Of a stretch of 64,000 bases of DNA, positions 5,389-42,249 are shown piece after piece. This DNA is from Sphingobium sp. GTDB lineage: Bacteria; Pseudomonadota; Alphaproteobacteria; Sphingomonadales; Sphingomonadaceae. The position numbers and the translations under genes are program-made. Within the stretch, counting starts at the first letter, position 1, and the number at the start of each line of letters is the position of its first letter. Location of the stretch: positions 1 to 64,000 of the forward strand of contig JAHFPV010000016.1 of the NCBI GenBank assembly GCA_023266575.1. Direction: 5' to 3'. A model generated the notes under the pieces. The model did no database searches and was not told where the DNA came from. It saw only the letters and a list, made by a program, of their open reading frames with translations.

Positions 5389-5414
5389 TTCGTAGTCGAA
5401 GGCAGGATGGTTAC
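5389..5414 (-). promoter_or_regulatory. SigF-type promoter for msrB
   Basis: Read on the minus strand: GTAACC, 16 bases, CGAA. Exact match to the pattern shared by the cargo operons. The -10 lies only about ten bases before the msrB ATG, so the transcript would have a very short leader. Confidence 0.8.
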
Positions 5415-5424
5415 AGGAAGGAGT

Positions 5425-5450
5425 GTAACCTGTGTCGCGGCACGAACGAA
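5425..5450 (+). promoter_or_regulatory. SigF-type promoter for msrA
   Basis: GTAACC at 5425-5430, 16-base spacer, CGAA at 5447-5450. Back to back with the msrB promoter, ten bases apart. The predicted transcript start near 5457 is upstream of the preferred msrA ATG at 5487 and leaves little room for the earlier ATG at 5466. Confidence 0.8.
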
Positions 5451-5486
5451 TGCCGGATTGGAGGTATGTTTCCGGAGTTTGAGTCC

Positions 5487-6155
5487 ATGTTACGTTCCAC
5501 TGCCCTTGCGGTTACATTGTTCGCCGGTGTCGCCGTGACCGCTGCGATAAGGCCCAGCGAAGCTCGCAATAGCGCAATCAAGGTTCCCGTCGCGGTCATG
5601 AAGGAGGCGCCTGGGGGAAATCGCGAGACGGCGATCTTTGCCGGGGGCTGCTTTTGGGGTGTCGAAGGTGTCTTCAGCCATGTGAAGGGTGTGGTTAGCG
5701 CGACTTCGGGATATGCCGGTGGCTCGGCATCGACCGCGCAATATGAGACTGTTTCGAGCGGTGCGACTGGCCACGCGGAATCGGTCAAGGTCGTGTTCGA
5801 CCCTCGGCAGGTGAACTACGCTACGTTGCTGCGTATCTATTTCTCCGTGGTCGCCGACCCAACCCAAGTGAACCGACAGGGGCCTGATGAAGGCACCCAA
5901 TATCGCACCGCCTTGTTCCCGCTATCGGCGGCCCAGACGAGGGTGGCGCGTGCCTACATCAGCCAGCTGAGCGCCGCTCGCGTCTTTTCCGCGCCGATCG
6001 CCACGCGCCTCGAGCAGCAGAGGGGCTTCTTTGCGGCGGAGGGCTACCACCAGGACTTTATGGCCCGCAACCCGAACTACCCCTACATCATTGTCAATGA
6101 TCGGCCGAAGGTCGACGCGCTCAAACGGATTTTCCCCGAGAACTGGAAGGCCTGA
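5487..6155 (+). CDS. msrA: Exported peptide-methionine (S)-S-oxide reductase MsrA
   Basis: Reduces the S epimer of methionine sulfoxide. Start chosen at 5487 because it begins a clean signal peptide (MLRSTALAVTLFAGVAVTAA); an in-frame ATG at 5466 would add seven residues. The catalytic motif is FAGGCFWGVEG (Cys near residue 56 of the precursor), followed by GYAGG, the TGHAESVKVVFDP core and EGYHQDFMARNP. About 222 residues, normal for MsrA with a signal sequence. A strong hairpin follows the stop. Partner of the divergent msrB. Confidence 0.94.
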   Translation: MLRSTALAVTLFAGVAVTAAIRPSEARNSAIKVPVAVMKEAPGGNRETAIFAGGCFWGVEGVFSHVKGVVSATSGYAGGSASTAQYETVSSGATGHAESVKVVFDPRQVNYATLLRIYFSVVADPTQVNRQGPDEGTQYRTALFPLSAAQTRVARAYISQLSAARVFSAPIATRLEQQRGFFAAEGYHQDFMARNPNYPYIIVNDRPKVDALKRIFPENWKA

Positions 6156-6161
6156 TCCACG

Positions 6162-6197
6162 AACCGCGTCCTCCCGGTCCACCGGGAGGACGCGGTT
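6162..6197. terminator. Long perfect hairpin after msrA
   Basis: A 17-base perfect inverted repeat (AACCGCGTCCTCCCGGT with its complement) separated by two bases, starting seven bases after the msrA stop. There is no U-run, so it is either a weak bidirectional terminator or an mRNA-stabilising stem. Confidence 0.6.
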
Positions 6198-6324
6198 GAC
6201 CACAATTCCGTCGGAAGCCGGCGCACGCACATCGGATAGCAAGCGTTTGCCCTTCATCACCAGCTGCTGCGAATCCAGCGGAGGCCATGAACGCTCTTGC
6301 GAAAGTTACGATGTTGAGAAGGAT

Positions 6325-6759
6325 CTACAGCGCGGCCAGCTCAGTGCCGCATTGCAGGAGAACGGTTCGTTCAATAGCTGCATAGCGGTGAACAAGCGCG
6401 GCGCGATAAGTTTCGTCGCGCATCATCGCGAGAAAATGCCCGCGCGAAGGATAGCGAACGATCAGCACCCGATCCCAGTCAGTCGGAGCCGTGCCGGGTT
6501 CGCCGATAAAAACCAGCCCGACATCGCCATTATAGATGATGTTCGCCTGACTGACGGTGCCGACGGTGACGCTGAATGCCTTTTCGTACAGGGCATAGGC
6601 TTCGCTTCCCGAGCGTGCCGGCTCCCCGCTGTCTTCGGGATAGACGGCCCGATCTTTGAACTTCAGCAGGTTGACCATCGTCACGGGGCCGTCCGGTCCA
6701 TCATCACGCAACTGGCGTACCTGATCAGCGGTCGGGTCAATCGAGCGATCGATCATCAT
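6325..6759 (-). CDS. DUF1330-like / dimeric alpha-beta barrel protein
   Basis: About 145 residues. Start at 6759 overlaps the stop of the upstream dienelactone hydrolase (ATGA-type coupling). The segment GPVTMVNLLKFKDRAVYP, then YALYEKAFSVTVGTVSQANI and DRVLIVRYPSRGHFLAMMRD, is typical of the DUF1330 branch of the dimeric ferredoxin-like barrel superfamily. No substrate is known. It is the last gene of a minus-strand operon that begins with the bufferin maturase pair at 10.7 kb. Confidence 0.75.
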   Translation of the reverse strand: MMIDRSIDPTADQVRQLRDDGPDGPVTMVNLLKFKDRAVYPEDSGEPARSGSEAYALYEKAFSVTVGTVSQANIIYNGDVGLVFIGEPGTAPTDWDRVLIVRYPSRGHFLAMMRDETYRAALVHRYAAIERTVLLQCGTELAAL

Positions 6760-7598
6760 ACCACCCCGTTTGCCTTGAAATGTGCCAACATCCGCGACCA
6801 TCCGTCACGCGCGTCGCCTTTGTTGTAGCTCGAACGATAGTCGGCGTGAAATCCATGCTGGGCGTCGGGATAGACGTGGATATTCGAACCCATTTTCCCG
6901 GCGGCTTGCAACGCAGCGCGCATCGCTTCGACATCGGCCTGGGGGATGCCCTGATCAAGCGCGCCGTACAGGCCTAACACCGGGGCCTTCAGTTCTGCGG
7001 CACGGCTGATCAGCGGCTTGAGCTGTCCATACCAGGCGACGCCTGCCTTGATATCGGGATCTTCCATGGCAGCACGCCAGACGACTGCGCCACCCCAGCA
7101 GAAGCCAGTGATCGCGATCCGCGTGCCTTCGACGAACGCTTGAGCCTTCAGCCACGTCGAAGTCGCTGCGACATCGTTGTCGACTTGGTCGGGTGTCGCC
7201 TGTCGGACGATCGGGATGATCTGCTCGATGTTGGCGATAGCCGGGAGATTGACGCCCGAACGGTAGAAGAAATCGGGCGCGATCGCGACATAACCGAGAC
7301 GCGCCAACCGTCGGCAGATGTCCTTGATATAATCGTGGATTCCGAAGATTTCATTCACGACGATGATCGCGGCATGTCGGGCCTGACCGGCGGGCCGGGC
7401 GACATAGGCCGGTAAGTGCTGGGACGCGCCATTCGGAATCGTTACGCCCTCAATAATCAGCCCGTCTTCAGGTGTCGTGATCGGCGCGGCCTCCGCGGAG
7501 AAAGCCGCGAGAGCATAGCCGGCGAAGAACAAACCAGCGGCCGCCCGGCGCGTCAGGTGGAAGTCTTCCGGCAATGAGCCTTCGGGCCTGGTCAGCAT
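6756..7598 (-). CDS. Dienelactone hydrolase family protein, exported
   Basis: 280 residues with an N-terminal twin-arginine-like leader (LTRRAAAGLFFAGYALAAF), so probably periplasmic, unlike classical cytoplasmic DLH. The alpha/beta hydrolase core shows the Cys nucleophile in GFCWGGAVV, the acid in GALDQGIP and the His in DAQHGFHAD. These enzymes cleave lactones or esters. The gene sits between an SDR and a DUF1330 gene in the bufB1-bufC1 operon, which suggests a stress-detoxification role rather than aromatic catabolism (inference). Confidence 0.88.
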   Translation of the reverse strand: MLTRPEGSLPEDFHLTRRAAAGLFFAGYALAAFSAEAAPITTPEDGLIIEGVTIPNGASQHLPAYVARPAGQARHAAIIVVNEIFGIHDYIKDICRRLARLGYVAIAPDFFYRSGVNLPAIANIEQIIPIVRQATPDQVDNDVAATSTWLKAQAFVEGTRIAITGFCWGGAVVWRAAMEDPDIKAGVAWYGQLKPLISRAAELKAPVLGLYGALDQGIPQADVEAMRAALQAAGKMGSNIHVYPDAQHGFHADYRSSYNKGDARDGWSRMLAHFKANGVV

Positions 7599-7615
7599 GG
7601 GGGCTCCTCATCAGT

Positions 7616-8422
7616 TCACAGCGCGCAGTGCGAGCGTACGTCTCGCTCAAAGACGTCCTTGATCGCAAGAAAATGGGCGTCGATCGCCATCGGATCCTTG
7701 CTGTTCAGGTCGATCAGGGCCTGTCTTTCGGGACCACCACGAACCACATTGATGGCGTCATGCTTGATCCCTGCAATGATCGCTTCAGCGACAGCTTCGG
7801 CTGGCTCCAGCGAGAATCCAATCTCTGGGCCCGCCTGGTTCGTCGCCATCATCGGGGTATCGGTGCCGCTGGGGTAGACCGTCATCACACGAACACCTTC
7901 TCCATTGAGCTCGCGCCGCAGCGACTCCCCAAAGCTCGACAGACCGGCCTTCACCGCCGCATAGGTCGCATAGAACGGCATCGCGACCAATGCGATCGCG
8001 GAAGAGACGTTAACGATCATGCTCTCGGAACCAGCTCGCAGCAACGGCAACGCCGTGCGAGTCAGCATGATAGGGGCAACAAGATCCACCTCGATCATGG
8101 CGCGGATCTCCTCTTCATCAATCGCATCAAGGCGACCGGCGCGAACCGCGCCGGCGTTGTTCACGAGAATATCGAGCCCGCCGAATGCTTCGATCGCGCC
8201 CTGCAAGGCTGCCGTGCGACCTATCGGGGTCGCGACATCGGCAGTGATGCCGGCAGCCTCCGCACCTGATGCGTTCAAAGCCCCGACAGCTTCATCGACG
8301 CGCGCTGCTCCGCACGCAGCGATGACCAGACGTGCACCGCGCGCGGCAAGCCCACGCGCCAATTCAAGCCCGATCCCGCTTGACCCGCCAGTGATGAGAA
8401 CCCGTTTTCCTTCGACGTCCAT
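7616..8422 (-). CDS. Short-chain dehydrogenase/reductase
   Basis: Start at 8422 (MDVEGKRVLITGGSSGIG), eleven bases after the GST stop; an earlier Met at 8449 would overlap the GST gene. Classical SDR: nucleotide-binding TGGSSGIG at residues 10-17, NNAG motif, catalytic Ser in NVSSAIA and YxxxK as YAAVKAG. About 268 residues. The dinucleotide and substrate are not readable. Transcribed with GST and dienelactone hydrolase genes, probably from the SigF-type promoter upstream of bufB1. Confidence 0.9.
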   Translation of the reverse strand: MDVEGKRVLITGGSSGIGLELARGLAARGARLVIAACGAARVDEAVGALNASGAEAAGITADVATPIGRTAALQGAIEAFGGLDILVNNAGAVRAGRLDAIDEEEIRAMIEVDLVAPIMLTRTALPLLRAGSESMIVNVSSAIALVAMPFYATYAAVKAGLSSFGESLRRELNGEGVRVMTVYPSGTDTPMMATNQAGPEIGFSLEPAEAVAEAIIAGIKHDAINVVRGGPERQALIDLNSKDPMAIDAHFLAIKDVFERDVRSHCAL

Positions 8423-8432
8423 GACCGGCACC

Positions 8433-9137
8433 TCAACCTTCTGCAGCATAGTTTGAGGGAAAGAGCGCGCGCAGCGTTTGCTCGTCGAACTCGCGCTTGA
8501 ATTCGTGATCGCTCCCAACATCGCGAGCACGCCACGCCGCCTGCCGCGCATTGACCAGCCGATGCCAGCGGGCCAAATCGGGATAGCGACTGAGGGGCTC
8601 GTCGAATTCGGGGAAGACGAAGCCGGCGCGTTCGATCCATCCCCAGGCCGCCATATCCGCGACCGTGTAGGTCTCGCCGACTATGTACGTCCGATCGCGC
8701 AGGTGATCGTCGAGAACCTGGTAATGGCGCTCGGCTTCGCGCCGATAGCGGTTGAGCGCATAGTCCAGACCCGCTGGCGCGGCGCGCTGGAAATGAACCG
8801 CCTGGCCGGAAAACGGTCCAAGGCCCGACGCCACGAAAAACAGCCAAGAGAGCAATTGCCCTCGATCCTCGGGTGATCCAAGAAATTGACCGTGCTTTTC
8901 TGCGAGATAGAGTAGGATCGCGGTCGAATCGAAGACCGCCGTCGGAACTCCGCCGGGGCCTTCGGTGTCGACGATCGCCGGGACTTTCCCGTTCGGATTG
9001 ATTGCGAGAAAGGAGGGCGCGCACTGTTCGCCCTTAAAGGTATCGACCGGCACAAGCTCATAGCCGATGCCGAGCTCTTCGAGCAGCAGGGCGACCTTCA
9101 AGGGGTTCGGGGTCGGGTGAAAATAGAAGCGGATCAT
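8433..9137 (-). CDS. Glutathione S-transferase family protein
   Basis: Start at 9137 (MIRFYFHPTPNPLKVALLLEE). The N-terminal thioredoxin-like domain holds the glutathione-binding NPNGKVPAIVD and DSTAILLYLAEK motifs; the C-terminal helical domain follows with TVADMAAWGWIERAGF. About 234 residues, similar to YghU/YfcG-type GSTs, which act on disulfides or peroxides. Begins about 30 bases after bufC1 and is likely co-transcribed with it. Confidence 0.88.
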   Translation of the reverse strand: MIRFYFHPTPNPLKVALLLEELGIGYELVPVDTFKGEQCAPSFLAINPNGKVPAIVDTEGPGGVPTAVFDSTAILLYLAEKHGQFLGSPEDRGQLLSWLFFVASGLGPFSGQAVHFQRAAPAGLDYALNRYRREAERHYQVLDDHLRDRTYIVGETYTVADMAAWGWIERAGFVFPEFDEPLSRYPDLARWHRLVNARQAAWRARDVGSDHEFKREFDEQTLRALFPSNYAAEG

Positions 9138-9165
9138 CTCGGTTTGGTCCTCATGCAAAACAGTC

Positions 9166-9912
9166 TCACCGGACGTCTGCGATCATCTGGTCTTGCACCC
9201 AGGACGCGAGATAGCGGCCGGCGGCATCGACCGCCGTTTCGACGCCGATTTCTTCGGACAGGCGGTCGCACAGGCGAGCAAAGCTCATGCCCGACGATGC
9301 GAGCTGGATCGCGCCCATCTCAGCGGTCTCGATCGAGGCGAAATGCGGTTGAAGACCGACGCGCCAAACACGCACCCAACCCGGCTCGGGCAGCAACTCG
9401 GCTGCCGGAACTTCCTCTTCGGCGGCGATCGCGTTCCAGATCGCGCCACAGTTGGTCTTGACGGGCAGCAACGTGAGCGTCGGCACGAATGCGATCACCG
9501 CCTCATCCCAATCGACCGCTGCGAGCTGTTGCCGGTCGAAGGCCGGTGCGTCGGGGCCGTCGAACGCGCGCCGCAAAGCCCAGTCGAGCGCGGCGATTTC
9601 GGCGACCTCAGGATCGTCCGGGTAAAGGTCGGCCATTGTCTCCGAGAATTTGACGCCGTAGTCGGCGAGCGTCCAGCTATGCGGCGGGTGGGCGGCGATA
9701 TGCCGGCGCGCAGCCGCTTCGAACGCCTCGTCTCCGAGCCACGCCCACAGGCGTTCGTAACTGTCTTTGAGGCACTCTACGAGCTGGCCACCATAGGCGT
9801 TGTGATAGACGGCAAGGCCCGGCCCACTGGACCCGCCAACGGCAACCGGAATGTCGCTCGGTTCATCCAACAGGAATCCCAGGAAATCGCGTTGAAGGTC
9901 GAGAAGCGTCAT
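9166..9912 (-). CDS. bufC: BufC-type DUF2063 partner protein (copy 1)
   Basis: Start at 9912 overlaps the bufB1 stop (ATGA). The N-terminal DUF2063 domain (TLLDLQRDFLGFLL, then LAVYHNAYGGQLVECLKDSYERLWAWLGDEAF) matches the family that partners MNIO enzymes, as MbnC does in methanobactin and BufC in bufferin biosynthesis. It is thought to recognise the precursor peptide and activate the DUF692 enzyme. About 248 residues. No BufA-type precursor is adjacent, unlike the two other copies in this window. Confidence 0.85.
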   Translation of the reverse strand: MTLLDLQRDFLGFLLDEPSDIPVAVGGSSGPGLAVYHNAYGGQLVECLKDSYERLWAWLGDEAFEAAARRHIAAHPPHSWTLADYGVKFSETMADLYPDDPEVAEIAALDWALRRAFDGPDAPAFDRQQLAAVDWDEAVIAFVPTLTLLPVKTNCGAIWNAIAAEEEVPAAELLPEPGWVRVWRVGLQPHFASIETAEMGAIQLASSGMSFARLCDRLSEEIGVETAVDAAGRYLASWVQDQMIADVR

Positions 9913-10751
9913 GCCGCGGCCGCCGTGACGTCGCCTGCGATGCGGCGCGCAACATCCAGCTCGTCCAACATATCCTGAAGCGGAGGAATGTTGTCGTCGC
10001 GCTCGATCATAGTGGCGACGCGTCCGAGACGAGGATAAATCCGGGCGAACAGATCCCAAACTGGATCGGGAACAGGCTCGTCGTGCGTATCGATTAGCCG
10101 GCCTTGCCCCTGGCTGTGGCCCGCGAGGTGGATTTGCCGAACACGGTCCGCCGGCACGCCCGCCAGATAATCATAGGGGTCAAAGCCGTTGTTCGTTCCG
10201 CTCACATAGATGTTGTTGACGTCGAGTAGCAGGTAGCAGCCCGTCCGTTTCGTCATCTCGGCAAGGAAGGCCCATTCGGTCATCTGGTCGTCGGCGAAGG
10301 TCAGATAGGTCGAGGGGTTTTCGAGGACCAGCGGACGTTCGAGCGCATCCTGGACATGCTCGATGTTCGCGCAAACGGTGTTGAGTGCTTCCTCGGTGAA
10401 GGGCAGCGGGAGCAGGTCATGGGAATTGACCTCCCCAACGCGCGACCAGCTCAGATGATCGGAGACCCATAATGGCTGGATTCGATCAGCCAGCGCTTTC
10501 AGGCGCGCAAGATAGTCGGAACGGATGCCGTCAGCCGAACCGATCGACATTGAAACGCCATGCATCGCAACGGGCCAGCGATCGCGCACCTCATCGAGAA
10601 CGTGGATCGGGCGCCCGCCGGCCCCCATGAAATTCTCGGAGATGATCTCGATGAAATCGACAGGAACGGCCTCGGTCAGATAATTCTGGAAGTGTGGAAT
10701 CCGCAGGCCGAGCCCGAAGCCGTGAAATGGCGCGATTGTTTCTTCCGGCAC
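9909..10751 (-). CDS. bufB: BufB-type DUF692 multinuclear iron oxidase (MNIO), copy 1
   Basis: 280 residues beginning with GTG at 10751, with a GGAG seven bases upstream. DUF692 TIM-barrel signatures are clear: GFGLGLRIPHFQNYL, DFIEIISENFMG, VAMHGVSMSIGS, WVSDHLSW, LENPSTYL, LLLDVNNIYVSGTNNGFDP, HLAGHSQG and MIERDDNIPP. MNIO enzymes use an iron cluster to modify cysteines in ribosomal peptides, giving copper-binding groups. This is the first gene of an operon continuing to bufC, GST, SDR, DLH and DUF1330. The lack of a neighbouring precursor means it may act on a peptide encoded elsewhere in the island. Confidence 0.9.
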   Translation of the reverse strand: MPEETIAPFHGFGLGLRIPHFQNYLTEAVPVDFIEIISENFMGAGGRPIHVLDEVRDRWPVAMHGVSMSIGSADGIRSDYLARLKALADRIQPLWVSDHLSWSRVGEVNSHDLLPLPFTEEALNTVCANIEHVQDALERPLVLENPSTYLTFADDQMTEWAFLAEMTKRTGCYLLLDVNNIYVSGTNNGFDPYDYLAGVPADRVRQIHLAGHSQGQGRLIDTHDEPVPDPVWDLFARIYPRLGRVATMIERDDNIPPLQDMLDELDVARRIAGDVTAAAA

Positions 10752-10816
10752 AGACTTACTCCGATCGGTGTGCCGGGCCCGGACGGAACGGAGGGACAGC
10801 CCGGCACATGACGGAA

Positions 10817-10842
10817 TACGAGTGGTAGCGTCTGGCGGTTAC
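10817..10842 (-). promoter_or_regulatory. SigF-type promoter for bufB1 operon (near match)
   Basis: Minus strand: GTAACC, 16 bases, CGTA. One base differs from the CGAA -10. Positioned about 66 bases before the bufB1 GTG. Probably drives the six-gene bufB1 to DUF1330 operon. Confidence 0.6.
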
Positions 10843-10904
10843 ACCTGCTCCGAAAGTTTCGCGCCGCAATGCGATTGGGGTGGGCGCGAGACGGGCCCGC
10901 CGCC

Positions 10905-11552
10905 TTACCAGCGTAAGAGCCGTGGTCCGACGGCGGCGCCGACCAACGTCGCTGCGGCAAGGCCGAGCGAGTACCATAGCAGCACGAAGCCAGGCGATGT
11001 CTCGGCGCAGTGTAGAGCGTAGATGGAAGCGCCAGTGGCGCCAGCAACCAATCCCGCAGCTGCGCCAGCGGCCTCAAGCCTCGTCGGAGCAAGGTGGGCC
11101 ATCGCCCGCACCAGCCCAACGAACACCGGCACCGATAACAACATCACATAGAGCGGGCACTGAAACCAACTCGAGCCCATCCAGAAGGAGGCAGTATTTC
11201 CGTCGGGGGCGATGGCCAGCTGGATGGACGTGACCAATGCCAACAGAGCGATGGGTGGCCACAAGAGTCGCGTCCAGTGAAGGTCGCGAGCGCCAGGCCG
11301 GCTCAATCGTTCGAGAGCGAAAAAGCCGAGCGACGCGATCGAGGCGGTGTAGAGCAGCTTCATCCAGAAGCCCATTGTCACGGCCGCTACGGACAAATCG
11401 CTACGCACGGCCAGCGAAGGCCAGAACAAGACCAGCACCATCGCGACGGCCGCACCCCGAATTAAACCCCGGCGCAAAAGGGCGCGCGGACCATGCAGGG
11501 GCACGGGCTGCAAATTCCTGGAAAGCTCCACAATCAACACTTCGGTATTCAT
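10905..11552 (-). CDS. nrsF: NrsF-type anti-sigma factor (DUF1109), complete copy
   Basis: About 215 residues, full length for the family, with roughly six hydrophobic segments (for example AAVAMVLVLFWPSL, MLLSVPVFVGLVRAMAHLAP and the C-terminal GLAAATLVGAAVGPRLL). NrsF proteins hold SigF-type ECF sigma factors inactive at the inner membrane until metal stress, probably via conserved cysteines (SWFQCPLY and ALHCAETSPG here). No sigma factor gene adjoins it; the only one in the window is at 21952-22488. It has an exact SigF-type promoter, which would give negative feedback. Confidence 0.82.
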   Translation of the reverse strand: MNTEVLIVELSRNLQPVPLHGPRALLRRGLIRGAAVAMVLVLFWPSLAVRSDLSVAAVTMGFWMKLLYTASIASLGFFALERLSRPGARDLHWTRLLWPPIALLALVTSIQLAIAPDGNTASFWMGSSWFQCPLYVMLLSVPVFVGLVRAMAHLAPTRLEAAGAAAGLVAGATGASIYALHCAETSPGFVLLWYSLGLAAATLVGAAVGPRLLRW

Positions 11553-11555
11553 CAA

Positions 11556-11874
11556 ATGCTCCGTCGAACACTCGGTCGACGGGCCTCCACGCCGCGAGTC
11601 TTGACTCTACATTCGGAACCGCGAGGCAATCGGTTACGCTGGGGTCGGTCCGGGACTGACGTGCATCCAAGAGGCAACGGAGGATGTTCGCGAGAAAAAT
11701 CCCGACAGAGTGGTGGAGAGGGTTACACCTGACGTCCGCCGAACGCCTTCGCGCGAACTTTTGGCGCCGGTCATGGCCCGTTATTGGTTCGGGAGAGGGC
11801 GGTGGCCGTGCCACCGCCTTGAAATGGCATGTTGCCGTCTCCTCAAGTTCGCCTCTCGTCAAGCCGCAGCCTGG
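11556..11874. other. Intergenic region with nrsF promoter, no gene
   Basis: About 320 bases with no convincing coding frame. It holds the exact SigF-type promoter at 11612-11637 and a second GTAACC (minus strand, 11721-11726) that lacks a matching -10. No trace of a sigma factor gene was found here, although an ECF gene would normally precede nrsF. Confidence 0.6.
11612..11637 (-). promoter_or_regulatory. SigF-type promoter for the complete nrsF
   Basis: Minus strand: GTAACC, 16 bases, CGAA, an exact match, about 60 bases before the nrsF ATG. Implies the anti-sigma is itself under control of the sigma factor it is predicted to bind. Confidence 0.78.
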
Positions 11875-12360
11875 TTAGGCGACGCTTGATCCCTTCCGCT
11901 GGACCGAGTTTACGAACAAGACGAGGGATGCAGCCAGAAGAACGGCGTCTTTCAATAGAAATTGGCCGGGCGCCGCCGAGATTGCGGGAAAACCGCCGGC
12001 GGTTTGCTCAGCCACGCCGGGCGTGCTCACGAAGAACGTCAGCGTTATGGCGTAGGTCGCAATCGACATCGCCGCGCCGAGTGCTGAAAAAGTGGGATGG
12101 AAAGCTCCAGCAACAAGGGCACACGCCGTCGCAAGTTCGATCACGCCAATGGCATAGCTCTGCCCCTGGATGCCGAGCATGTTGAGCCAGTGCATGATGG
12201 GGCTGTTGTCGATGAACGGTGCGATTCCGTTTGCCTCATAGGCGGTGAATTTCATTCCGCCAAACCAGAGGAAGACAATGACCAATGCCCAGCGCAGGAG
12301 GGCGAGGTCACTCCGGCCATGCTCCGCGACCCGAAAGCCGTAGTCGTCGAAAATTTTCAT
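11875..12360 (-). CDS. DUF417 (YkgB/RclC-like) membrane protein
   Basis: 161 residues with about four transmembrane segments. The N-terminal LLRWALVIVFLWFGGMKFTAYEA, the central IGVIELATACALVAGAF and the C-terminal PGQFLLKDAVLLAASL are typical of DUF417, related to DoxX. The E. coli relative RclC belongs to a reactive-chlorine resistance operon. It is divergent from a MarR regulator whose twin operators lie in the shared intergenic region, so it is probably a target of that regulator. No SigF-type promoter precedes it. Confidence 0.85.
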   Translation of the reverse strand: MKIFDDYGFRVAEHGRSDLALLRWALVIVFLWFGGMKFTAYEANGIAPFIDNSPIMHWLNMLGIQGQSYAIGVIELATACALVAGAFHPTFSALGAAMSIATYAITLTFFVSTPGVAEQTAGGFPAISAAPGQFLLKDAVLLAASLVLFVNSVQRKGSSVA

Positions 12361-12528
12361 ATTTCAGTCCTTTCTTTATGCGAATTGGAAAGTGCTTGGT
12401 GTGATTTCGCGTCCCCACTGCGCCGTGGGTGTCCAGCTTCAATTGATCGATCCCGCTCGTCGCGGCGCTCGAATGAGGAGCGCGGTGGAATTGAGCGATC
12501 TCGTGCGTTCATGCTCCGGTACGTGAAT

Positions 12529-12547
12529 TATATGCGCCGCGCATATA
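12529..12547. promoter_or_regulatory. MarR operator, distal palindrome
   Basis: Perfect 19-base palindrome TATATGCGC-C-GCGCATATA. Identical to a second copy 38 bases downstream, upstream of the MarR gene. The spacing (centre to centre ~3.6 helical turns) is compatible with two dimers on related faces. Confidence 0.75.
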
Positions 12548-12566
12548 TTGCAGATTGAGGCTTGTC

Positions 12567-12585
12567 TATATGCGCCGCGCATATA
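12567..12585. promoter_or_regulatory. MarR operator, proximal palindrome
   Basis: Second perfect copy of the TATATGCGC-C-GCGCATATA palindrome, extended by one matching base on each side. It ends one base before the first possible ATG (12587) of the MarR gene, so bound repressor would block its own transcription or initiation. Confidence 0.78.
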
Positions 12586-12595
12586 GATGTGGGCG

Positions 12596-13123: not shown

Positions 13124-13196
13124 TTCTTCACCAGGCGTCGGGACTGTGGGGCAGCAGATTGATTTAAGGAAATCACAGAGGCGGGCGTGACTTCCT

Positions 13197-13222
13197 GTAA
13201 CCCCCGATTGCTTATGGGCGAA
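13197..13222 (+). promoter_or_regulatory. SigF-type promoter for nitrilase gene
   Basis: GTAACC, 16-base spacer, CGAA: exact match, about 105 bases before the GTG start. The leader downstream contains a strong hairpin. Confidence 0.78.
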
Positions 13223-13263
13223 TGAACCAATGCGCCGTGTAAAAAGAGTCAAGAAGGCGGCGC

Positions 13264-13307
13264 TGTGTGGCGGGAGATGCCCCCCCGCTTCCCGCCACAC
13301 ACATTTT
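13264..13307 (+). promoter_or_regulatory. Terminator-like hairpin in the nitrilase mRNA leader
   Basis: Twelve-base perfect stem (TGTGTGGCGGGA with TCCCGCCACACA) around a C-rich loop, followed by CATTTTT. It lies between the SigF-type promoter and the start codon, so it would act as an intrinsic terminator/attenuator or cap the leader. Confidence 0.5.
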
Positions 13308-13326
13308 TCCGGACGGGAGCGACGCG

Positions 13327-34793: not shown

Positions 34794-34839
34794 ATATCCG
34801 TCTCCCATTTGTTCGGACCCTGAGGTGATCCGAGATGAG

Positions 34840-34865
34840 TTCGACGGCATGACGGTCCCGGTTAC
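34840..34865 (-). promoter_or_regulatory. SigF-type promoter for YHS-TlpA-YedE operon
   Basis: Minus strand: GTAACC, 16 bases, CGAA: exact match, about 47 bases before the ATG at 34793. Confidence 0.78.
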
Positions 34866-35389
34866 AGGTTCCGCGATTATTTCACGACGAATCGCGCGCG
34901 ATTGCAGCTGTTTTTGCCAACGAGCCAACCCCGAGGTCGGGCGACGGTGGGGACGTGTTGGCTCCGCCGATGAATGTAGCGCCGGCAATGGTCACCCTGC
35001 TGGTTGCGGCGCTTTCTCTGTCGGCCAGCACTCCTGATTCCTCGGGGCGCCGTCGGTCCTAGGATGGCAGCTTGGGTTGCAATCCGTTACCCAGCGCAAA
35101 CGACCATCAGTAGCGCGGCCCGCCGGAATCTGTCCGGCCATCGCCGTAGCGCTCGATGCAAGACGTAACGGTCGGCGACGGCGCGCGGCGCTTCGTGACG
35201 GCTCTAAAGTAATACGAACGGCGAGATATATTCGTCACGCTTATCCGGCGCGGCGCACCAAACACCGCCGTCTGCCGTCGTGTTGTGCCCGTGAGCCGCC
35301 TACGCTTCGATCATCATAGTAGGTGCGGCGGCTTGAGCCGGGCCTGTGCGGCAGGTCTGAAAATCCTTCGCGTTGGCAGAGCGGTCGGC
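34866..35389. other. Gene-free region left of the cus operon
   Basis: About 520 bases with no supported gene. It contains one member of an imperfect direct-repeat pair (35197-35254) whose partner lies on the far side of the cus operon. Confidence 0.5.
35197..35254 (+). repeat. Imperfect direct repeat flanking the cus operon, copy A
   Basis: Roughly 80% identical over ~58 bases to 42388-42445, in the same orientation. The best-conserved core is GAACGGCGAGATATATTCGT; it is followed by TCCGGCGCGG in both copies. Confidence 0.7.
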
Positions 35390-35734
35390 TCATTCCTTGC
35401 GGATCGAGGTCAACCGGCCGGCTTGCCCGTCCCACTGAAACGAGAATGCCACCTTGTCGCCAACGGCCAGGCCCTGCGCCATCGCGGCATTGCCCGCGAA
35501 CGTCATCGTCATCGCCGGCCATTTCAGTTCCGCGACGGGGCCATGATCGAGCGTGATCTGGCCGGTGGCGGCGTCAATCGCGGTGATCGTTCCAACGCCG
35601 TTCGCCTGTTTGGACTCACCGGACATCGCTATGTTGGACATGGCATCCGACTTGGTTGCCTGGCCGGTCGAGGCGGACTGTCCGCAGGCTGCCAGCGGAA
35701 TGGCGAATAGTGCGGCGATAAACGGAATTTTCAT
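35390..35734 (-). CDS. cusF: CusF-like periplasmic copper-binding lipoprotein
   Basis: 114 residues from the ATG at 35734, overlapping the cusA stop (ATGA). Lipobox AIPLAACGQ, then the CusF OB-fold: ANGVGTITAIDAATGQITLDH and LKWPAMTMTFAGN, whose Trp and two Met residues are the CusF copper(I)/silver ligands together with the His in LDHGPV. It passes copper to the CusCBA pump. Last gene of the operon. Confidence 0.9.
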   Translation of the reverse strand: MKIPFIAALFAIPLAACGQSASTGQATKSDAMSNIAMSGESKQANGVGTITAIDAATGQITLDHGPVAELKWPAMTMTFAGNAAMAQGLAVGDKVAFSFQWDGQAGRLTSIRKE

Positions 35735-38700
35735 CACGTCGGGTCTCCTTGGGTTGCAACGGGTGAAGCGGCGCTGCGGCGCATCAGCAGGTAGGCGGCC
35801 GGGATCACGAACATCGAGAGCAGGGGCGCGGTCAGCATCCCGCCGATCATCGGCGCGGCGATGCGGCTCATCACTTCCGATCCGGTGCCGGTGCCGAGCA
35901 GGATCGGCAGCAGGCCGGCGAGGATGACCGCCACCGTCATTGCCTTGGGCCGGACGCGCAGTAAGGCGCCTTCGCGGACCGCTTCTTCGACTTTGCCGGC
36001 ATCGGGCGCAGCGCCACGATCGGCGAGCGCGTGTTTCAGATAGATCAGCATCACCACACCGAACTCGGCGGACACGCCGGCGAGCGCGATGAACCCCACC
36101 GCGGTCGCGACCGATTGGTTGTAGCCGAGCAGGTAGAGCAGCCACACCCCGCCGGTCAGCGCGAACGGCAAGGTCGCCATGATAAGCGCCGCCTCGTCCA
36201 ATCGCCGGAACGTCAGGTAGAGCAGCAGGAAGATGATCGCGAGGGTCGCGGGCACGACGATCTTCAAGCGTTGCGTGGCGCGTTCGAGAAACTCGAACTG
36301 GCCGGTATAGGCAACGCTGATTCCCGGCGGCAGCGCGACCCTGGCCGAGACCGCGCGTTGCAGATCGCCGACCATATCGGTCAGCGCGCGGCCGCGGGCA
36401 TCGACATATATCCACGTCGCCGGGCGACCATTCTCGCTGCGCAGCATCGGCGGGCCCGAGACGATGCGGACATCGGCGACGGTGCCGAGCGTGATTTGCT
36501 GACGCGAGGGCGTCAGGATCGGCAGGTTGACGATCTTGTCCGGACTGTCGCGTAGCTCGCGCGGGTAGCGCAGGCTGATCGGGTAGCGTGCCAGCCCCTC
36601 GACTGTCTCGCCGATTACAGCGCCGCCGATCGCGCCCGACACCACCTCCTGCACATCGGCGACGTTCATGCCGTAGCGCGCAGCGGCGGCGCGATTGACC
36701 TGGACGTCGATATAGCGGCCGCCGCTCAGCCGTTCGGCCAGCGCCGAACTGACCCCCGGCACGGTCTTTGCCACGGCCTCGATCTTCTGCGCGACCTGAT
36801 CGATCTGGCCGAGATCGGCGCCCGACACCTTGATCCCGATCGGACTCTTGATGCCGGTTGCCAGCATGTCGATGCGGTTGCGGATCGGCGGTATCCAGAA
36901 ATTGGCGAGGCCGGGCACCTTCACGGTGCGGTCAAGTTCCTCGACCAATTTGTCCTGCGTCATCCCCGCACGCCATTGGTTCTTCGGCTTGAACCGGATC
37001 GTCGTCTCGAACATTTCGAGGGGGGCGGGATCGGTCGCGGTATCGGCGCGGCCCGCCTTGCCGAACACGCTCTCGACCTCAGGCACAGTCTTGATCAGCC
37101 GGTCGGTCTGCTGGAGCAGCAGCCCGGCCTTCGCGGTCGAGATACCGGGCAGCGCGGACGGCATGTAGAGCAGGTCGCCCTCGTTCATCTGCGGCATGAA
37201 CTCGCCGCCGGTCTGGCTGATCGGCCATAGGCTGGAAGCGAAGACCAGTCCGGCGATCAACAGTGCCTGCTTCGGCCGTGCCAGCACCCAATCGAGCGCC
37301 GGGCGATAGGCGTGCGACAACCAGCGGTTGACCGGGTTCACTTCCTCGCCCGGAATCCGCCCGCGGATGAGCCACCCCATCAGCACCGGCACGAGCGTGA
37401 TCGACAGAATCGCCGCAGCCGCCATCGCATAGGTCTTGGTGAAAGCGAGCGGGGCGAACAGCCGCCCCTCCTGGCCCTGAAGTGAGAAGATCGGGATGAA
37501 GGAAAAGGTGATGATCAATAGCGAGAGGAACAGCGCCGGCCCGACCTCGGCGGCGGCATCGGTAATGACGCGCCAGCGCTCCGGTCCGGCCAGTTCGGTA
37601 TCGGGATGATCGTGCGCCCAGCGTTCGAGGTGCTTGTGGGCATTCTCGATCATCACGACGGCGGCATCGACCATCGCGCCGATCGCGATCGCGATCCCGC
37701 CAAGCGACATGATGTTGGCGTTGACACCCTGCACCCGCATCACGACGAAGGCGGCGAGGATGCCAAGCGGCAAAGTCAGGATCGCGACCAGTGCCGAGCG
37801 AACGTGCCAGAGGAACAGCGCGCAGACGAGCGCGACGACCAAAAACTCCTCGAACAATTTGCCCGTGAGATTATCGACCGCGCGGTCGATCAGCCCCGAG
37901 CGATCGTAGGTGGTGACGATCTCGACCCCCGGCGGCACGCTCTTCTTCAATTCGTCGAGCTTCGCCTTGACGCCCTCGATCACCTCGCGCGCGTTCTTGC
38001 CCTGGCGCATGACGATCACGCCGCCCGCGACCTCGCCCTGGCCGTTCAGTTCGGCGACGCCGCGGCGCATGTCGGGGCCGATCTGGACCGTCGCGACATC
38101 GCTCAGCAGAACGGGAACGCCTCCGGTGGCGGTGCGGATCGGCACGCTGCGGAAATCGTCGAGCGACGAGAGGTAGCCGGTCGCGCGAACGATATATTCC
38201 GCCTCCGACATCTCGACGATCGAGCCGCCGGTCTCCGAATTGGCGCGCTTGAGCGCCTCGCTCACTTCGGCTTGGGTGATGCCGTAGGAGATCAGCTTCT
38301 GCGGATCGAGCAGCACCTGATACTGCTTGACCATGCCGCCGATGCTCGCGACCTCGGCCACGCCGGGGACGGATTTCAGCTCGTAGCGCAGGAACCAGTC
38401 CTGCAATGATCGCAGTTGCTGCAAGTCCTGCCGACCGGTCCTGTCGACCAGCGCATATTCGTAGATCCAGCCCACCCCGGTCGCGTCGGGGCCGATCGAG
38501 GCCGTCGCGCCGGGGGGCAGGCGGCCCTGCACCTGGCTCAGATATTCGAGCACCCGGCTGCGCGCCCAATACAGGTCGGTCCCGTCGTCGAACAGCACAT
38601 AGACGAAGCTGTCGCCGACGAACGAATAACCGCGCACCACCCGCGCGCCCGGCACCGACAGCATCGTCGTCGCGAGCGGATAGGTAACTTGATTTTCGAC

Positions 38701-38880
38701 AATCTGCGGCGCCTGCCCCGGATAGGACGTGCGGATGATGACCTGCACGTCGGACAGATCAGGCAAGGCATCGACCGGCGTGGTCCGCATCGCGCCGATG
38801 CCGATCGCCACTAGAACCAAGGCCGCCAGAACCACGGCCATGCGCGCCTTGACCGATGCATGGATTATCCGCGCGATCAT
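35734..38880 (-). CDS. cusA: CusA-type heavy-metal efflux RND pump
   Basis: 1048 residues, the usual length for HME-RND proteins. Twelve transmembrane helices in two halves; N-terminal [20 protein letters not shown], proton-relay segment [21 protein letters not shown] in TM4, and the porter region with [18 protein letters not shown], a conserved HME feature. Drives copper/silver from periplasm and cytoplasm through CusB and CusC using the proton gradient. Overlaps cusB by ATGA. The copper label is supported by the CusF gene and Met-rich neighbours. Confidence 0.95.
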
Positions 38881-40109
38881 TTCGCTGCGCCGATCGCGCG
38901 AACCGGGATGCCCGTCAGGCTCGCTTCGGAATCGAGCAGGAACTGCCCCGATGCGACGACCTTTTCGCCCGGCGCCAGACCGGCGAGAATTTCGGTCTGG
39001 CCGCCCGCATCGCGCCCGACCCGCACTTCGGCGGGATGATAGCGCCCGTCGCCGGTCGCCAGCATGACCAGTGTGCGTGTGCCGGTGCGGATCACCGCCT
39101 CGCTCGGCACGAGCAGGGCTGGCCGCGCATCGCCGCCGAGCGCGACGCTGGCGAACATGCCGGGCCGCAGGCGCCCGCTGCGATTGGCGAGTTCGATCCG
39201 CACGGTGAGCGTGCGGCTGTCGGCCTGCGCGGTCGGCAGGATCGCGATCACGCGCCCGCTAAACGGCTCGCCCGGAAAGCCGGTCAGCGTCGCGGTCGCC
39301 GTCTGGCCGACGCGAACGTCGCCGGTGCGCGCCTCGGGCACGGCGGCGTTGAGCCAGACCGTGTCGAGGCCGCTGACCTGCGCGAGCGTCTGCCCCATTG
39401 CCAGCGTCACTCCGGCGCGCGCGTCGAGCGATTGGATCACCCCCGAAATCGGCGTGGTGATCGTCACGACGCCGTTCGGCCGCCCGCTGCGCTCGACGCT
39501 GCTGATTAGCCCGTCGGACATGCCCATCAACCGCAAGCGTTGCCGCGCCGCCGCAGTCAGGTCGGGCTTACCGAGGCGCTTGACGCTTAGGAACTCGGTC
39601 TGCGCACCGCCCCATTCGGGCAGCAGCAGCGTCGCGATCGGTGCGCCAGCGCGCACCACGTCGCCCGGCGCGCGGGCATAGACGCGCTGCACGAACCCGC
39701 CCGATCGCGCCTGGATGATCGCAACATCGCGCTGGTTGAAATCGATCGTGCCGGTGACGTCGAGCGCGCTGGCGAGACTGCCCATCGTCGCCGCAACCGC
39801 TCGAATGCCCAGGCTCTGCCGTGCGGCGGGATCGACGCTGACGCCCGGCGCGGCGCCGCCCGCTGCGCCATCGGCGTATTTGGGGACGAGCTGCATGTCC
39901 ATGAACGGCGATTTGCCCGGCTTGTCGAACTTCTGATTGGGGAACATCGGATCATAGTAATAGAGCGGCGCCGAGCCGCCCGCGCTTGCCGGTGTAAGCG
40001 GCGCTTCATTGGCGCTCTGACCCAGCCAGTATCCGCCTCCGCCGGCGACGATCGCCGCCAGCAGGACCGCGCCGCGCCAGCGTGCAGCCTGGGTGCTCGA
40101 AAGCGTCAT
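38877..40109 (-). CDS. cusB: CusB-type periplasmic adaptor protein
   Basis: 410 residues. N-terminal membrane anchor ([19 protein letters not shown]), then a heavy-metal-binding motif ([31 protein letters not shown]) typical of CusB N-termini, lipoyl/barrel-sandwich halves around [19 protein letters not shown] and [16 protein letters not shown], and a beta-barrel with [13 protein letters not shown]. Met residues in the N-terminal part accept copper from CusF and gate the pump. Confidence 0.94.
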
Positions 40110-41335
40110 GACGGTTCCCCTCCATAAGTGATGGTGATGCGCACGGCGTCGCGCGCCACATCGGTTTCGCGATTGAGCGCATCGACTTCGGCTTCGGCGA
40201 GCGCGAGCGCCGAGAGCAGCGCGCTGCCAAGGTCGAGCTTGCCCGCGGCATAGCTGTCGCGATCGAGTTCGGCACGGCGCTTGGCCAGCGGCACGAGGGT
40301 GCTGCGCGCATTCTCCAGCCGCTCATGGTGCATGGCGTGATCGGCGAGGTCGGACTGGAGCGCGGCGATCCATTGCCGTCTGACCGCTTCGCGATCCAGT
40401 CTGGTGCCATTCGCTGCGCTTTCACTGGCGGCAATCTTCGGGTTCTGCCGCTTGCCCGCGAACAGCGGCAGATCGATCGACACGCCGACCGACACGAGAT
40501 CACCGTAGCGCGGGTCGCGGCGGCCATAGGATGTGCTCAGCGACCAGTCAGGGCGCTTGTCGGCGCGCGCCAGCCGCGTATCGGCATCGGCCCCGGCAAT
40601 CGCCGCGTCGGCAGCGCGCAGCGCCGGCAGCGCATCGATCCCGGCCATCAATAGCGCCGGGTCGATGTCGAGGCTCGGCGGGGGACCGCTCACCTCGGGA
40701 TTGGTATCGCCGGTATAGCGCGTCAGTCGCGCGCGCGCCTGCGCCACCGCCGCGACCATATCCGCGCGCCGGTCGGCGACCGCGGCGCGTAGCTGCGCCG
40801 GTTCGAGCGTCTGCGACGGTCGTGCGGTGCCAGCCGTCAGTCGCGCCGCAACCGTTTTTTGCAGATCGTCGAGGCTCGCGTCGAGCAGGTCGAGCTGCGC
40901 CAGCCGGCGCTCGCCATAGTAAAGGTCGATCCACGCCAGCGCCGTCTCCAGTCGAACGGCGCGCGCTTCGGTGAGGACGCCGGCCTCGGCGATGCCGATA
41001 TTGGCGGTTGCCCGCTCGGCGAGCGCGCGACGCTTCGCCAAATTGGGAAAGCGCTGCGTCAGACCGATCACCGACATCGTGAAGTTGTCGCCTGTGAAGC
41101 TGCCCGCCGCGGGGCCAGTGACGGGAAAGTCCTGGAGGCGGAGATCGAGCGTCGGATCGGGCAGGCGGTCGACCGCAATCGCTGATGAGCGCGCCGCATC
41201 GGTCGCGGCGCCGCGAGCACGAACGCTGGGCGCCGCAGCCGCCGCGCGCGCCAGCGCCTGATCATAGGTCATCTGGTCGGCGAGCGCGGCGGACGGCACA
41301 CCCACGCAGGCGAGCAGGATTATGGCGTATTTCAT
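40106..41335 (-). CDS. cusC: CusC/TolC-family outer-membrane efflux protein
   Basis: 409 residues from the ATG at 41335, preceded by GGGGAGGA. Signal peptide (AIILLACVGVPSAALA), then two OEP repeats with long coiled helices: LDASLDDLQKTVAARLTAGT in the first and KRRAELDRDSYAAGKLDLGS in the second. Forms the outer-membrane channel of the Cus pump. Overlaps cusB (ATGA). Confidence 0.92.
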   Translation of the reverse strand: MKYAIILLACVGVPSAALADQMTYDQALARAAAAAPSVRARGAATDAARSSAIAVDRLPDPTLDLRLQDFPVTGPAAGSFTGDNFTMSVIGLTQRFPNLAKRRALAERATANIGIAEAGVLTEARAVRLETALAWIDLYYGERRLAQLDLLDASLDDLQKTVAARLTAGTARPSQTLEPAQLRAAVADRRADMVAAVAQARARLTRYTGDTNPEVSGPPPSLDIDPALLMAGIDALPALRAADAAIAGADADTRLARADKRPDWSLSTSYGRRDPRYGDLVSVGVSIDLPLFAGKRQNPKIAASESAANGTRLDREAVRRQWIAALQSDLADHAMHHERLENARSTLVPLAKRRAELDRDSYAAGKLDLGSALLSALALAEAEVDALNRETDVARDAVRITITYGGEPS

Positions 41336-41437
41336 GTCGTCCTCCCCATTGGGACGGAACCGGCTTGCGGGCGGCACCGACGCCGATGGCGCCGCGGGGA
41401 AACATGCGTTTCGCCCGCTACGCCACCAGTCGGTTGC

Positions 41438-41725
41438 TCAGCCCTGACGAGCCGGGTTGCTGGCGGACGGCATGGTCATGCAGTTGGCCGCCTGGGGTCC
41501 GCGCATCATCGAGCAATCGCAGTCAGCGGCCATCATCTTGCTGTCGCTGACCCAAACGCGCACGGGCGCGCGAGTGGGTGCCCGTGGGCCGTAGGACGGC
41601 TGGCTACGCCATTCGAAGTGCCCCGTCGAAGGAGCCGGCTGCGCGTCCGCAGCAAACGCGGCCGAGGCCGTTGCGGACAGGGCGAGGGTGGCCGCAATGG
41701 CTGCGGCGCGAACGATAGTCTTCAT
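41438..41725 (-). CDS. Small exported Cys/Met-containing protein in cus operon
   Basis: 95 residues from the ATG at 41725. A signal peptide (AAAIAATLALSATASAAFA) is followed by a short Pro/Arg-rich stretch and a C-terminal cluster KMMAADCDCSMMRGPQAANC with M, D, C and further Met residues, suggesting soft-metal binding. No family recognised. Located between the Met/Cys-rich gene and cusC on the same strand, so likely co-transcribed. Confidence 0.6.
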   Translation of the reverse strand: MKTIVRAAAIAATLALSATASAAFAADAQPAPSTGHFEWRSQPSYGPRAPTRAPVRVWVSDSKMMAADCDCSMMRGPQAANCMTMPSASNPARQG

Positions 41726-41825
41726 GGTGATAGTATCCTTGGTTGAATCGCAGTTGGACGAATGGCGATCGTCGGAGCGCGTGCCGGGCACGACGCTGGA
41801 CAGCAATCACCGACGCCGGATCGGT

Positions 41826-42188
41826 TCAGCCAAGGAGTGAGGGTGGTTCAGGCTCGGGCGTGACGGTGCGCCCGGCAAATACGGCCGTGACCGGCCAGAA
41901 CACCCCGATCGGAGTGATGTACGGCGACGACGCGGCGGGCGCGGGCTCACTGACAGCCAGCATGACGCCGCAACTCGCCATCAGCGCGCAGCCGCGCTTC
42001 GTATCTTTGCTCTGCTTCTTATCGCAGTCCGGACACTTCATCGCCATGTCGCAGTCGGGCATATCCGCCATCGCCGAGGTCTGGCTCTGCATCATCATGT
42101 TGCACGGCGGCGCTGCCGCGGCCACGCCGTTGCCGACAAGCCCGAACAGGACTCCCACGAGCAATAGATGGCGAAGCAGCCTCAGCAT
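41826..42188 (-). CDS. Met/Cys-rich exported protein leading the cus operon
   Basis: 120 residues. A signal peptide (LLLVGVLFGLVGNGVAAAA) is followed by a dense soft-ligand region, PPCNMMMQSQTSAMADMPDC then DMAMKCPDCDKK and RGCALMASCGVM, which would suit copper(I). A second hydrophobic stretch is near the C-terminus. No named family recognised; similar Met-rich small proteins accompany alphaproteobacterial cus/cop operons. First gene after an exact SigF-type promoter. Confidence 0.68.
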   Translation of the reverse strand: MLRLLRHLLLVGVLFGLVGNGVAAAAPPCNMMMQSQTSAMADMPDCDMAMKCPDCDKKQSKDTKRGCALMASCGVMLAVSEPAPAASSPYITPIGVFWPVTAVFAGRTVTPEPEPPSLLG

Positions 42189-42223
42189 TTAATATGGGTG
42201 CGTGATGACATGGCGAAAGTCAA

Positions 42224-42249
42224 TTCGCGTTGCCGCGCAGTTTGGTTAC
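42224..42249 (-). promoter_or_regulatory. SigF-type promoter for the cus operon
   Basis: Minus strand: GTAACC, 16 bases, CGAA: exact match, about 36 bases before the start of the Met/Cys-rich gene. Puts copper efflux in the same predicted regulon as the bufferins. Confidence 0.78.

Follow-up and report, generated by a model that had tools for sequence, protein, structure and literature searches.

We analysed a 64,000-nucleotide stretch of the genome of a Sphingobium sp. (assembly GCA_023266575.1, contig JAHFPV010000016.1, positions 1 to 64,000), hereafter called the window, in which an earlier reading made from the letters alone (the sequence-only reading) had proposed a mobile island carrying an extracytoplasmic function (ECF) sigma factor together with a 17-promoter regulon. 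Our analyses make it very probable that the island belongs to an integrative conjugative element (ICE) of ~70 kb, integrated into trmB at its 3' end, that carries the sigma factor SigF, its membrane anti-sigma factors and nearly all SigF-type promoters of the cell. At the sequence level, the evidence comprises the element itself, a near-identical copy in another species, the set of promoter motifs, the fact that this set is almost confined to the element, and its conservation in relatives; from these data we infer that the promoters depend on SigF.

The sequence-only reading had listed thirteen exact GTAACC-N16-CGAA sites in the window and four variants with one departure from that pattern. 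All 13 exact sites were found at the same coordinates and on the same strands. Scanning the window with spacers of 10 to 22 nucleotides (nt) yielded 13 sites at N16 and 0 or 1 at every other spacer, and the looser N15-17 pattern matched 14 times, against a mean of 0.07 and a maximum of 1 in 100 dinucleotide shuffles of the window. When up to one mismatch was allowed, the N16 pattern gave 19 sites (13 exact and 6 one-off) for 1.78 expected. Three of the one-off sites (10817-, 19651- and 28527-) are variants that had already been proposed, and sites are also found before their orthologues elsewhere; the remaining three (22069+, 46354- and 54232+) are within open reading frames (ORFs). The fourth proposed variant, 23907+, has an N15 spacer and is at background level, since spacers other than N16 give 0 or 1 match in the window; it was not accepted as a sure promoter. 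Seventeen is therefore an upper count for the regulon, with 13 exact sites, one of them lacking a credible gene, and three supported variants. The exact sites share further bases, namely C and T before the -35 box (10/13 each) and T after the -10 box (9/13).

As claimed earlier, all but one of the 17 listed sites are close to a gene start, with a start codon (picked by us among the ORFs) 9-104 nt ahead in 16 cases and 17099- as the exception. Twelve of the 13 exact sites face a start codon in that range, while the chance for a random position and strand is 3.2%. The sites and the genes that follow them are listed below; families were assigned with Pfam, and operons were assumed from strand and spacing. 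By our count, they add up to as many as 16 transcription units and ~40 genes.

5389..5414, minus strand: SigF-type promoter (exact), 9 nt from the start of msrB (4867-5379, SelR family)
5425..5450, plus strand: SigF-type promoter (exact) of msrA (5487-6155, PMSR family)
10817..10842, minus strand: variant SigF-type promoter (one mismatch) of bufB_a (MNIO, 9909-10751), bufC_a (DUF2063), GST, SDR, DLH and p6325
11612..11637, minus strand: SigF-type promoter (exact) of nrsF2; sites also precede nrsF2 orthologues
13197..13222, plus strand: SigF-type promoter (exact) of a nitrilase-like gene (13327-14292, CN_hydrolase)
14416..14441, plus strand: SigF-type promoter (exact) of genes for a 52-residue protein (14461-14619) and a DUF1223 protein (14631-15353, Pfam DUF1223)
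15357..15382, plus strand: SigF-type promoter (exact) of a thioredoxin gene (15420-15806) and p15811 (15811-16788)
17099..17124, minus strand: orphan SigF-type site (exact), with no credible gene ahead; the stretch after it (17092-16955) folds strongly
19651..19676, minus strand: variant (CGGA) SigF-type promoter (one mismatch) of the bufA1-bufB-bufC-doxX operon
19711..19736, plus strand: SigF-type promoter (exact) of a lone bufA2 (19785-20060; NCBIfam BufA2, 5.5e-31)
22570..22595, minus strand: SigF-type promoter (exact) of sigF, followed by the nrsF1 remnant
23907..23931, plus strand: doubtful N15 site, 9 nt before a gene for a 435-residue protein (23941-25248), followed by bufA1_c, bufB_c and bufC_c (to 27153)
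28018..28043, minus strand: SigF-type promoter (exact) of a DsbD/CcdA-like gene (27209-27934)
28527..28552, minus strand: variant (GTAACG) SigF-type promoter (one mismatch) of a thioredoxin-like gene (28080-28469)
32640..32665, minus strand: SigF-type promoter (exact) of CBS (32144-32584), rubrerythrin-like, KAS III, ABC ATPase and ABC permease genes (to 28562)
34840..34865, minus strand: SigF-type promoter (exact) of YHS (34302-34793), TlpA-like and YedE-like genes (to 32721)
42224..42249, minus strand: SigF-type promoter (exact) of the Cys/Met-rich p41826 (41826-42188), cusC, cusB, cusA and cusF (to 35390)

The rubrerythrin-like assignment is a weak match below the cut-off, and no Pfam or NCBIfam family could be assigned to the 435-residue protein behind the N15 site.

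We then considered the whole genome (3.62 Mb in 26 contigs). The N16 pattern occurs at 15 sites, compared with 3 for the reversed control, and 13 of the 15 are in the window; at the density found outside the window, 0.02 sites would be expected in 38 kb. An equal density along the chromosome is thus ruled out for N16, as is a chance origin of the motif in view of the shuffles, the N16 genome control, the placement of the sites and their spacer specificity. As stated in the sequence-only reading, the trb genes of the window and its final 20 kb of core chromosome contain no N15-17 match, and the same holds for the first 60 kb of contig C25, where the remainder of the element and flanking DNA are located. 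Of the two outside N16 sites, C2:44936 falls in an integrase-like ORF, at its 3' end. The other (C15:143059) precedes a short leader ORF by 26 nt, and a chromosomal PMSR (MsrA) gene comes next; given this position, it looks like a genuine promoter outside the island. A 27-mer of the latter site is shared by 4 of the 41 same-genus genomes; each of these 4 has NrsF, as do 22 of the 41 overall, and the numbers are too small to count.

The motif equals the published consensus of Caulobacter crescentus SigF, a member of the ECF16 group, tGTAACc-N16-CGAA, two promoters of which were mapped by 5' rapid amplification of cDNA ends (Kohler 2012, PMC3511200); the consensus is also drawn from PMC3420878. 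The proposed agreement with the Caulobacter SigF/NrsF system is sustained by the motif, the gene neighbourhood and the NrsF cysteines alike. In the parts of the Caulobacter report relevant here, SigF is described to control eight genes in three units as well as sigF, chromium stress to release SigF, and residues C131 and C181 of NrsF to matter (PMC3511200). Copper was reported to induce the Caulobacter SigF regulon, and the sigF mutant is copper-sensitive (PMC8224329).

Conservation of the sites was assessed in loci chosen by their sigF gene rather than by the motif. We scanned a genome collection with SigF, which gave 109 relatives, of which 80 were kept. Those 80 loci (1.40 Mb) contain 172 exact N16 sites, against 3 for the reversed motif. 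In the 78 diverged loci, i.e. with the two near-identical copies left out, we counted 156 N16 sites; other spacers gave 1-6, and 50 permuted motifs averaged 2.5 with a maximum of 12. For an upstream test, homologues of the island proteins were collected from 78 sources (74 loci as fetched and 4 replaced by longer stretches), those covering <55% of the query or located <=200 nt from an end were dropped, and 350 nt upstream were scanned. The resulting counts of exact N15-17 sites, which are not independent because paralogues share matches (three bufB, two thioredoxins, NrsF1/NrsF2), were 19/21 for bufA2, 25/43 for bufA1, 22/77 for sigF, 11/16 for DUF1223, 5/9 for each of trxA1 and trxA2, 6/28 for nrsF2, 7/54 for bufB_a, 4/10 for msrB, 1/7 for msrA, 3/9 for dsbD, 1/3 for the nitrilase gene, 1/2 for CBS and 1/1 for YHS. 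The reversed motif was found upstream of none of the homologues tested. Among genes without a site of their own in the window, the counts were 0/29, 0/10 and 0/17 for the bufC genes, 0/14 for the ABC ATPase, 0/3 for the ABC permease, 0/3 for KAS III, 0/2 for the rubrerythrin-like gene, 0/16 for SDR, 0/7 for araC, 0/1 for each of TlpA, cusB and cusC, 1/20 for GST, 1/6 for DUF417 and 1/7 for p15811. Higher values for doxX (15/46), bufB_b (7/54) and bufB_c (8/54) are put down to other gene orders and shared matches.

Two of the one-off variants are kept in relatives. The CGGA variant before bufA1_b recurs in four of the five relatives checked, the fifth having an exact site, and the GTAACG variant before trxA2 recurs in both relatives checked. 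The recurrence of these boxes in diverged genomes suggests tuned promoter strength. As for the one-off site of bufB_a (10817-), it is exact before the orthologue in seven relatives.

The sigma factor and its presumed partners are encoded as follows:

21952..22488, minus strand: sigF, coding for an ECF sigma factor, with the ATG of 22488 as start codon (Pfam)
10905..11552, minus strand: nrsF2, intact anti-sigma factor of the NrsF (DUF1109) family (PF06532, 3.8e-56), with Cys132 and Cys182 by alignment
21618..21962, minus strand: nrsF1 remnant of 114 residues, without both conserved cysteines
20352..21620, plus strand: IS3-family element cutting nrsF1

SigF contains regions 2 and 4 (PF04542 and PF08281), with PRK12539 as its best NCBIfam model, below the cut-off (153 vs 171 bits). 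No other sigma factor encoded in the genome is closely related to it, the three next in line being 27-29% identical. Both NrsF genes of the genome (2/2) belong to the cargo of the window. The sequence-only reading had placed sites before sigF and nrsF themselves. This is correct for sigF, but the nrsF adjoining it is a remnant ending at the IS3-family element, and the nrsF gene that has a site is the intact nrsF2, which is unlinked to sigF. In the two other copies of the region, found in Sphingobium sp. CECT 9361 and in the metagenome-assembled genome (MAG) KAN-30, the insertion sequence is absent and NrsF1 is whole; CECT 9361 has 358 bp in its place. The counterparts of Caulobacter C131 and C181 are residues 132 and 182 of NrsF2 and residues 130 and 180 of CECT 9361 NrsF1 by alignment. 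A search for plasmid relatives of the cargo by near-identical DNA returned 37 records, the matched stretch being the IS3 element in the 25 listed.

NrsF1 beside sigF and NrsF2 beside bufBC occur together in six of nine related loci (AS12, PAMC 26605, PAMC 26621, mali, TREG and Ant H11). At the LC81 and C3 loci the sole NrsF is the one beside sigF, and the SigF cluster of the MAG REEB22 shows no NrsF match within 20.5 kb. A second sigF-nrsF pair is present in the mali genome, with an NrsF similar to NrsF2, which indicates that NrsF2-like proteins can belong to another sigma factor; no second SigF-like partner for NrsF2 was identified in the genome of the window. Because the IS3-family element cuts nrsF1, NrsF2 is likely to be the working brake that remains in the host strain.

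The loss of both conserved cysteines from nrsF1 also lends itself to another explanation, namely that this is an ordinary metal-resistance island that captured an old SigF cluster, the sites being vestigial, the system constitutive or dead now that nrsF1 is cut, and the work being done by LysR, MarR and AraC regulators. Genes for all three are present in the cargo, and araC adjoins sigF in several relatives. We nevertheless regard this scenario as improbable, because nrsF2 is intact with both cysteines, nrsF1 is intact in both other copies, and the sites are unchanged there, with all 13 N16 sites retained in CECT 9361 (19 in its genome) and 12 in the part covered by the KAN-30 contig (14 in the genome).

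The element that carries this cargo has the following features in the window:

1..43875, no strand: right part of the ICE, the rest being on contig C25 with an assembly gap between
295..3211, plus strand: conjugation genes of the VirB8 (trbF-like), CagX (trbG-like) and TrbI families (Pfam)
42500..43726, minus strand: tyrosine integrase of the trmB-targeting kind, beside trmB (Pfam)
43850..43875, minus strand: attachment site in the trmB 3' end, paired with C25:25726-25751 (23/26 bases alike)

The contig of the window (C26) opens inside the conjugation operon, and C25 starts with genes for TrbE-like, T2SSE-type ATPase, TraG and DUF3363 relaxase proteins, oriented toward the contig start. C25 also carries a displaced end of trmB (25726-25758), in which 23 of the first 26 bases agree. 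From the break in trmB and this second trmB end, the element is deduced to consist of 25.75 kb, the gap and 43.88 kb. An integrase at one end, attachment repeats at both ends, on two contigs, and genes for a relaxase, a coupling protein and a type IV secretion system are thus present. Its backbone is presumably akin to Tn4371-like elements.

Comparison with Sphingobium sp. CECT 9361 revealed no mismatch over positions 1-20352 of the window and a single one over 21621-43879 (together 42.6 kb, with the insertion sequence left out). Beyond 43879, the chromosomes are 73-82% alike, and the break is within the last 13 codons of trmB. The mobile island with an ECF sigma factor put forward by the sequence-only reading is thereby corroborated by the integrase, the attachment repeats, the conjugation genes and the CECT 9361 copy, as well as by the PF04542 and PF08281 signatures. 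KAN-30, placed in another genus of the family, has a 30-kb contig with 98.8-99.2% identity over positions 4571-34994. Past 34994, the KAN-30 contig is unlike the window (L069, 1-560). Since the match ends at that point, the cus operon may be a separate addition.

It could also be envisaged that the island is no longer mobile, and that the location and identity it shares with CECT 9361 stem from a recent exchange of the entire region through homologous recombination; the distribution of the element over two contigs and the failure to find an empty site are compatible with this view. Yet the identity stops beside the attachment site, at window position 43880, a displaced trmB end is present on C25, the conjugation genes are there, and trmB is <=1.5 kb from the integrase at 16 of the 24 other homologue loci examined, so that immobility seems decidedly improbable. 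Homologues of the integrase were found in 47 of 298 genomes of the family, the host genome included, and an exact 11-base piece of the trmB end is present at 1 of the 24 loci. In many sphingomonads, tyrosine integrases of this family adjoin trmB at its 3' end (loci L190-L213). The trmB gene was found in 20 of 21 same-genus genomes, and all 11 that were compared cease to resemble the window at 43841-43865.

Several observations weigh against our interpretation of a mobile element that carries nearly all SigF-type promoters of the cell. With the looser N15-17 spacing, the genome total is not above that of the reversed control (22 matches, 14 of them in the window, vs 27). The regulon, which the sequence-only reading had called self-contained, is not strictly confined, as 13 of the 15 N16 sites are in the window but the chromosomal msrA carries an exact site. 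For some genes few homologues keep the site (msrA 1/7, nrsF2 6/28, sigF 22/77), and the 52-residue gene, the 435-residue gene behind the N15 site and p41826 have no diverged homologues with which to compare sites. Regarding the element, the search for an empty insertion site gave none, five same-genus genomes show no synteny with the C25 flank, the gap between the two contigs possibly hides conjugation genes, and the ability to transfer is putative. Lastly, a motif is not proof of its use by SigF, and the Caulobacter sigF promoter is only partly SigF-dependent and stays active without sigF (PMC3511200). That another ECF sigma factor or DNA-binding protein reads these sites, SigF being one reader among several, is nevertheless very improbable, given that the sigma factors ranking after SigF in this genome share 27-29% identity with it and that two boxes, a fixed N16 spacer and distances of 9-104 nt to the start suit an ECF promoter.

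The cargo contains the usual components of bufferin clusters, with DUF2282 or BufA2 precursor, MNIO, DUF2063 and DoxX genes identified by Pfam and NCBIfam, and all three MNIO genes of the genome are part of it. One module is arranged as follows:

17240..19551, minus strand: bufferin operon of bufA1 (19273-19551), bufB (18428-19261), bufC (17701-18435) and doxX (17240-17704) (Pfam)

Modules a and c have no doxX of their own, and module a lacks a precursor gene. The lone bufA2 at 19785 could encode the substrate of this MNIO/DUF2063 pair, located beside nrsF2 (9166-10751).

The orphan site 17099- stands apart. The only ORF ahead of it (16743-17045, minus strand, 100 residues) starts 53 nt on, has no Pfam match and was treated as spurious. 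The 138 nt downstream of the site fold with z = -4.3, but no terminator-like site was seen after it, and an Rfam scan of the window gave no match at the gathering score. The stretch 16955-17124, with the site and the structured part, is a possible small RNA. No exact copy of the site was found in the six diverged relatives checked: in four of them the matching gap has no site, and TREG and Ant H11 have one-off sites only, in long gaps matching this region.

Clusters resembling that of the island are found in Sphingomonas (PAMC 26605, PAMC 26621, mali, TREG and Ant H11) and in Sphingobium sp. AS12. They share sigF, nrsF1, bufA2, bufBC, nrsF2 and many of the promoters with the island, as well as most of araC, bufA1, doxX, trx, DUF1223 and p15811, at ~55-92% protein identity. 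N16 sites are concentrated in them, with 11 in 48.5 kb for PAMC 26605 (18 in the genome), 9 in 13 kb for mali (12), 8 in 13 kb for AS12 (17) and 7 in 28 kb for PAMC 26621 (16). No homologue of the integrase, TrbI, TraG, TrbE, TrbB or the relaxase was detected in these 12-60 kb stretches; among the nine related loci, the integrase match is at LC81, with 27% identity. The element thus seems to have picked up a ready-made cluster. Judging from these sequences, clustering of the regulon precedes the element or is independent of it, so that the novelty claimed for a transferable SigF regulon resides in its transfer as one piece rather than in its clustering.

Other relatives are plasmid-borne. From the PLSDB records matching SigF (389) or NrsF2 (121), six loci were picked; they have sigF-nrsF as in the island, some of them with a bufferin module or with msr and thioredoxin genes, and 0-2 N15-17 sites in ~40 kb each. 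The cnrYXH-cnrCBA system of Cupriavidus metallidurans pMOL28 similarly combines an ECF sigma factor, a membrane anti-sigma factor and metal-related targets on mobile DNA, but it has few promoters and unrelated anti-sigma proteins.

With the Caulobacter SigF-NrsF system, the island has in common the promoter motif, the sigF-nrsF order (with nrsF1 a remnant in the host strain), the MNIO/DUF2063/DUF2282/DoxX operons and the two NrsF cysteines. It differs by the number of units, up to 16 on a mobile element instead of eight genes in three units plus sigF, and by the second NrsF, and it adds the msrA/msrB, cus, KAS III/ABC and YHS/YedE operons (PMC3511200). EcfF-OsrA of Bradyrhizobium japonicum (PMC3420878) and the ECF16 pair of Brucella (PMC8315932) belong to the same sigma group, with a related motif, msr targets and two anti-sigma cysteines. 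The EcfF motif has an N14-15 spacer instead of N16 (PMC3420878), and the passages concerned in these two articles give no account of a single mobile cluster. Published bufferin gene clusters (PMC12452194) share precursor, MNIO, DUF2063, DoxX, sigma factor and NrsF genes with the island; the words 'mobile', 'plasmid', 'integrative' and 'horizontal' are absent from the main text of that article. Among the entries listed in our literature searches, we recognised no paper on a mobile SigF regulon, the search for NrsF being dominated by an unrelated neuronal protein.

By analogy with the Caulobacter and Bradyrhizobium systems, membrane-bound NrsF would hold SigF, and metal or oxidant stress acting on its conserved cysteines would free the sigma factor. 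Freed SigF might then start up to 16 transcription units, or ~40 genes, whose products would include bufferins (copper peptides of the periplasm) with the enzymes that mature them, repair functions for methionine sulfoxide and thiols, and the cus efflux pump, among others. Through the sites ahead of sigF and nrsF2, SigF would feed back on itself positively and negatively, respectively, with NrsF2 as the probable remaining brake in the host strain. In a new host, the element would deliver the sensor, the sigma factor and its targets jointly, and the resident msrA may come under its control as well. A more ambitious joint reading is conceivable, albeit rather doubtful as a whole: the element would be a near self-contained transferable programme, largely apart from host regulons, that captures the resident msrA promoter, the two NrsF proteins would represent separate inputs, one of them lost to the insertion sequence, and the orphan site would give rise to a SigF-dependent structured RNA.

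A conjugative element with a sigma factor, its brakes and a dozen or more promoters offers a testable case of how a whole regulon might be transferred and function immediately in a new host. It adds a probable ECF16 promoter set that includes naturally weak variants retained in several species. Of the three copies, one has lost nrsF1 but still has nrsF2, a natural experiment that bears on the reason for two anti-sigma factors in the cluster. The element is also a likely route of spread for bufferin genes, and a whole stress programme could in this manner pass between species in one piece.

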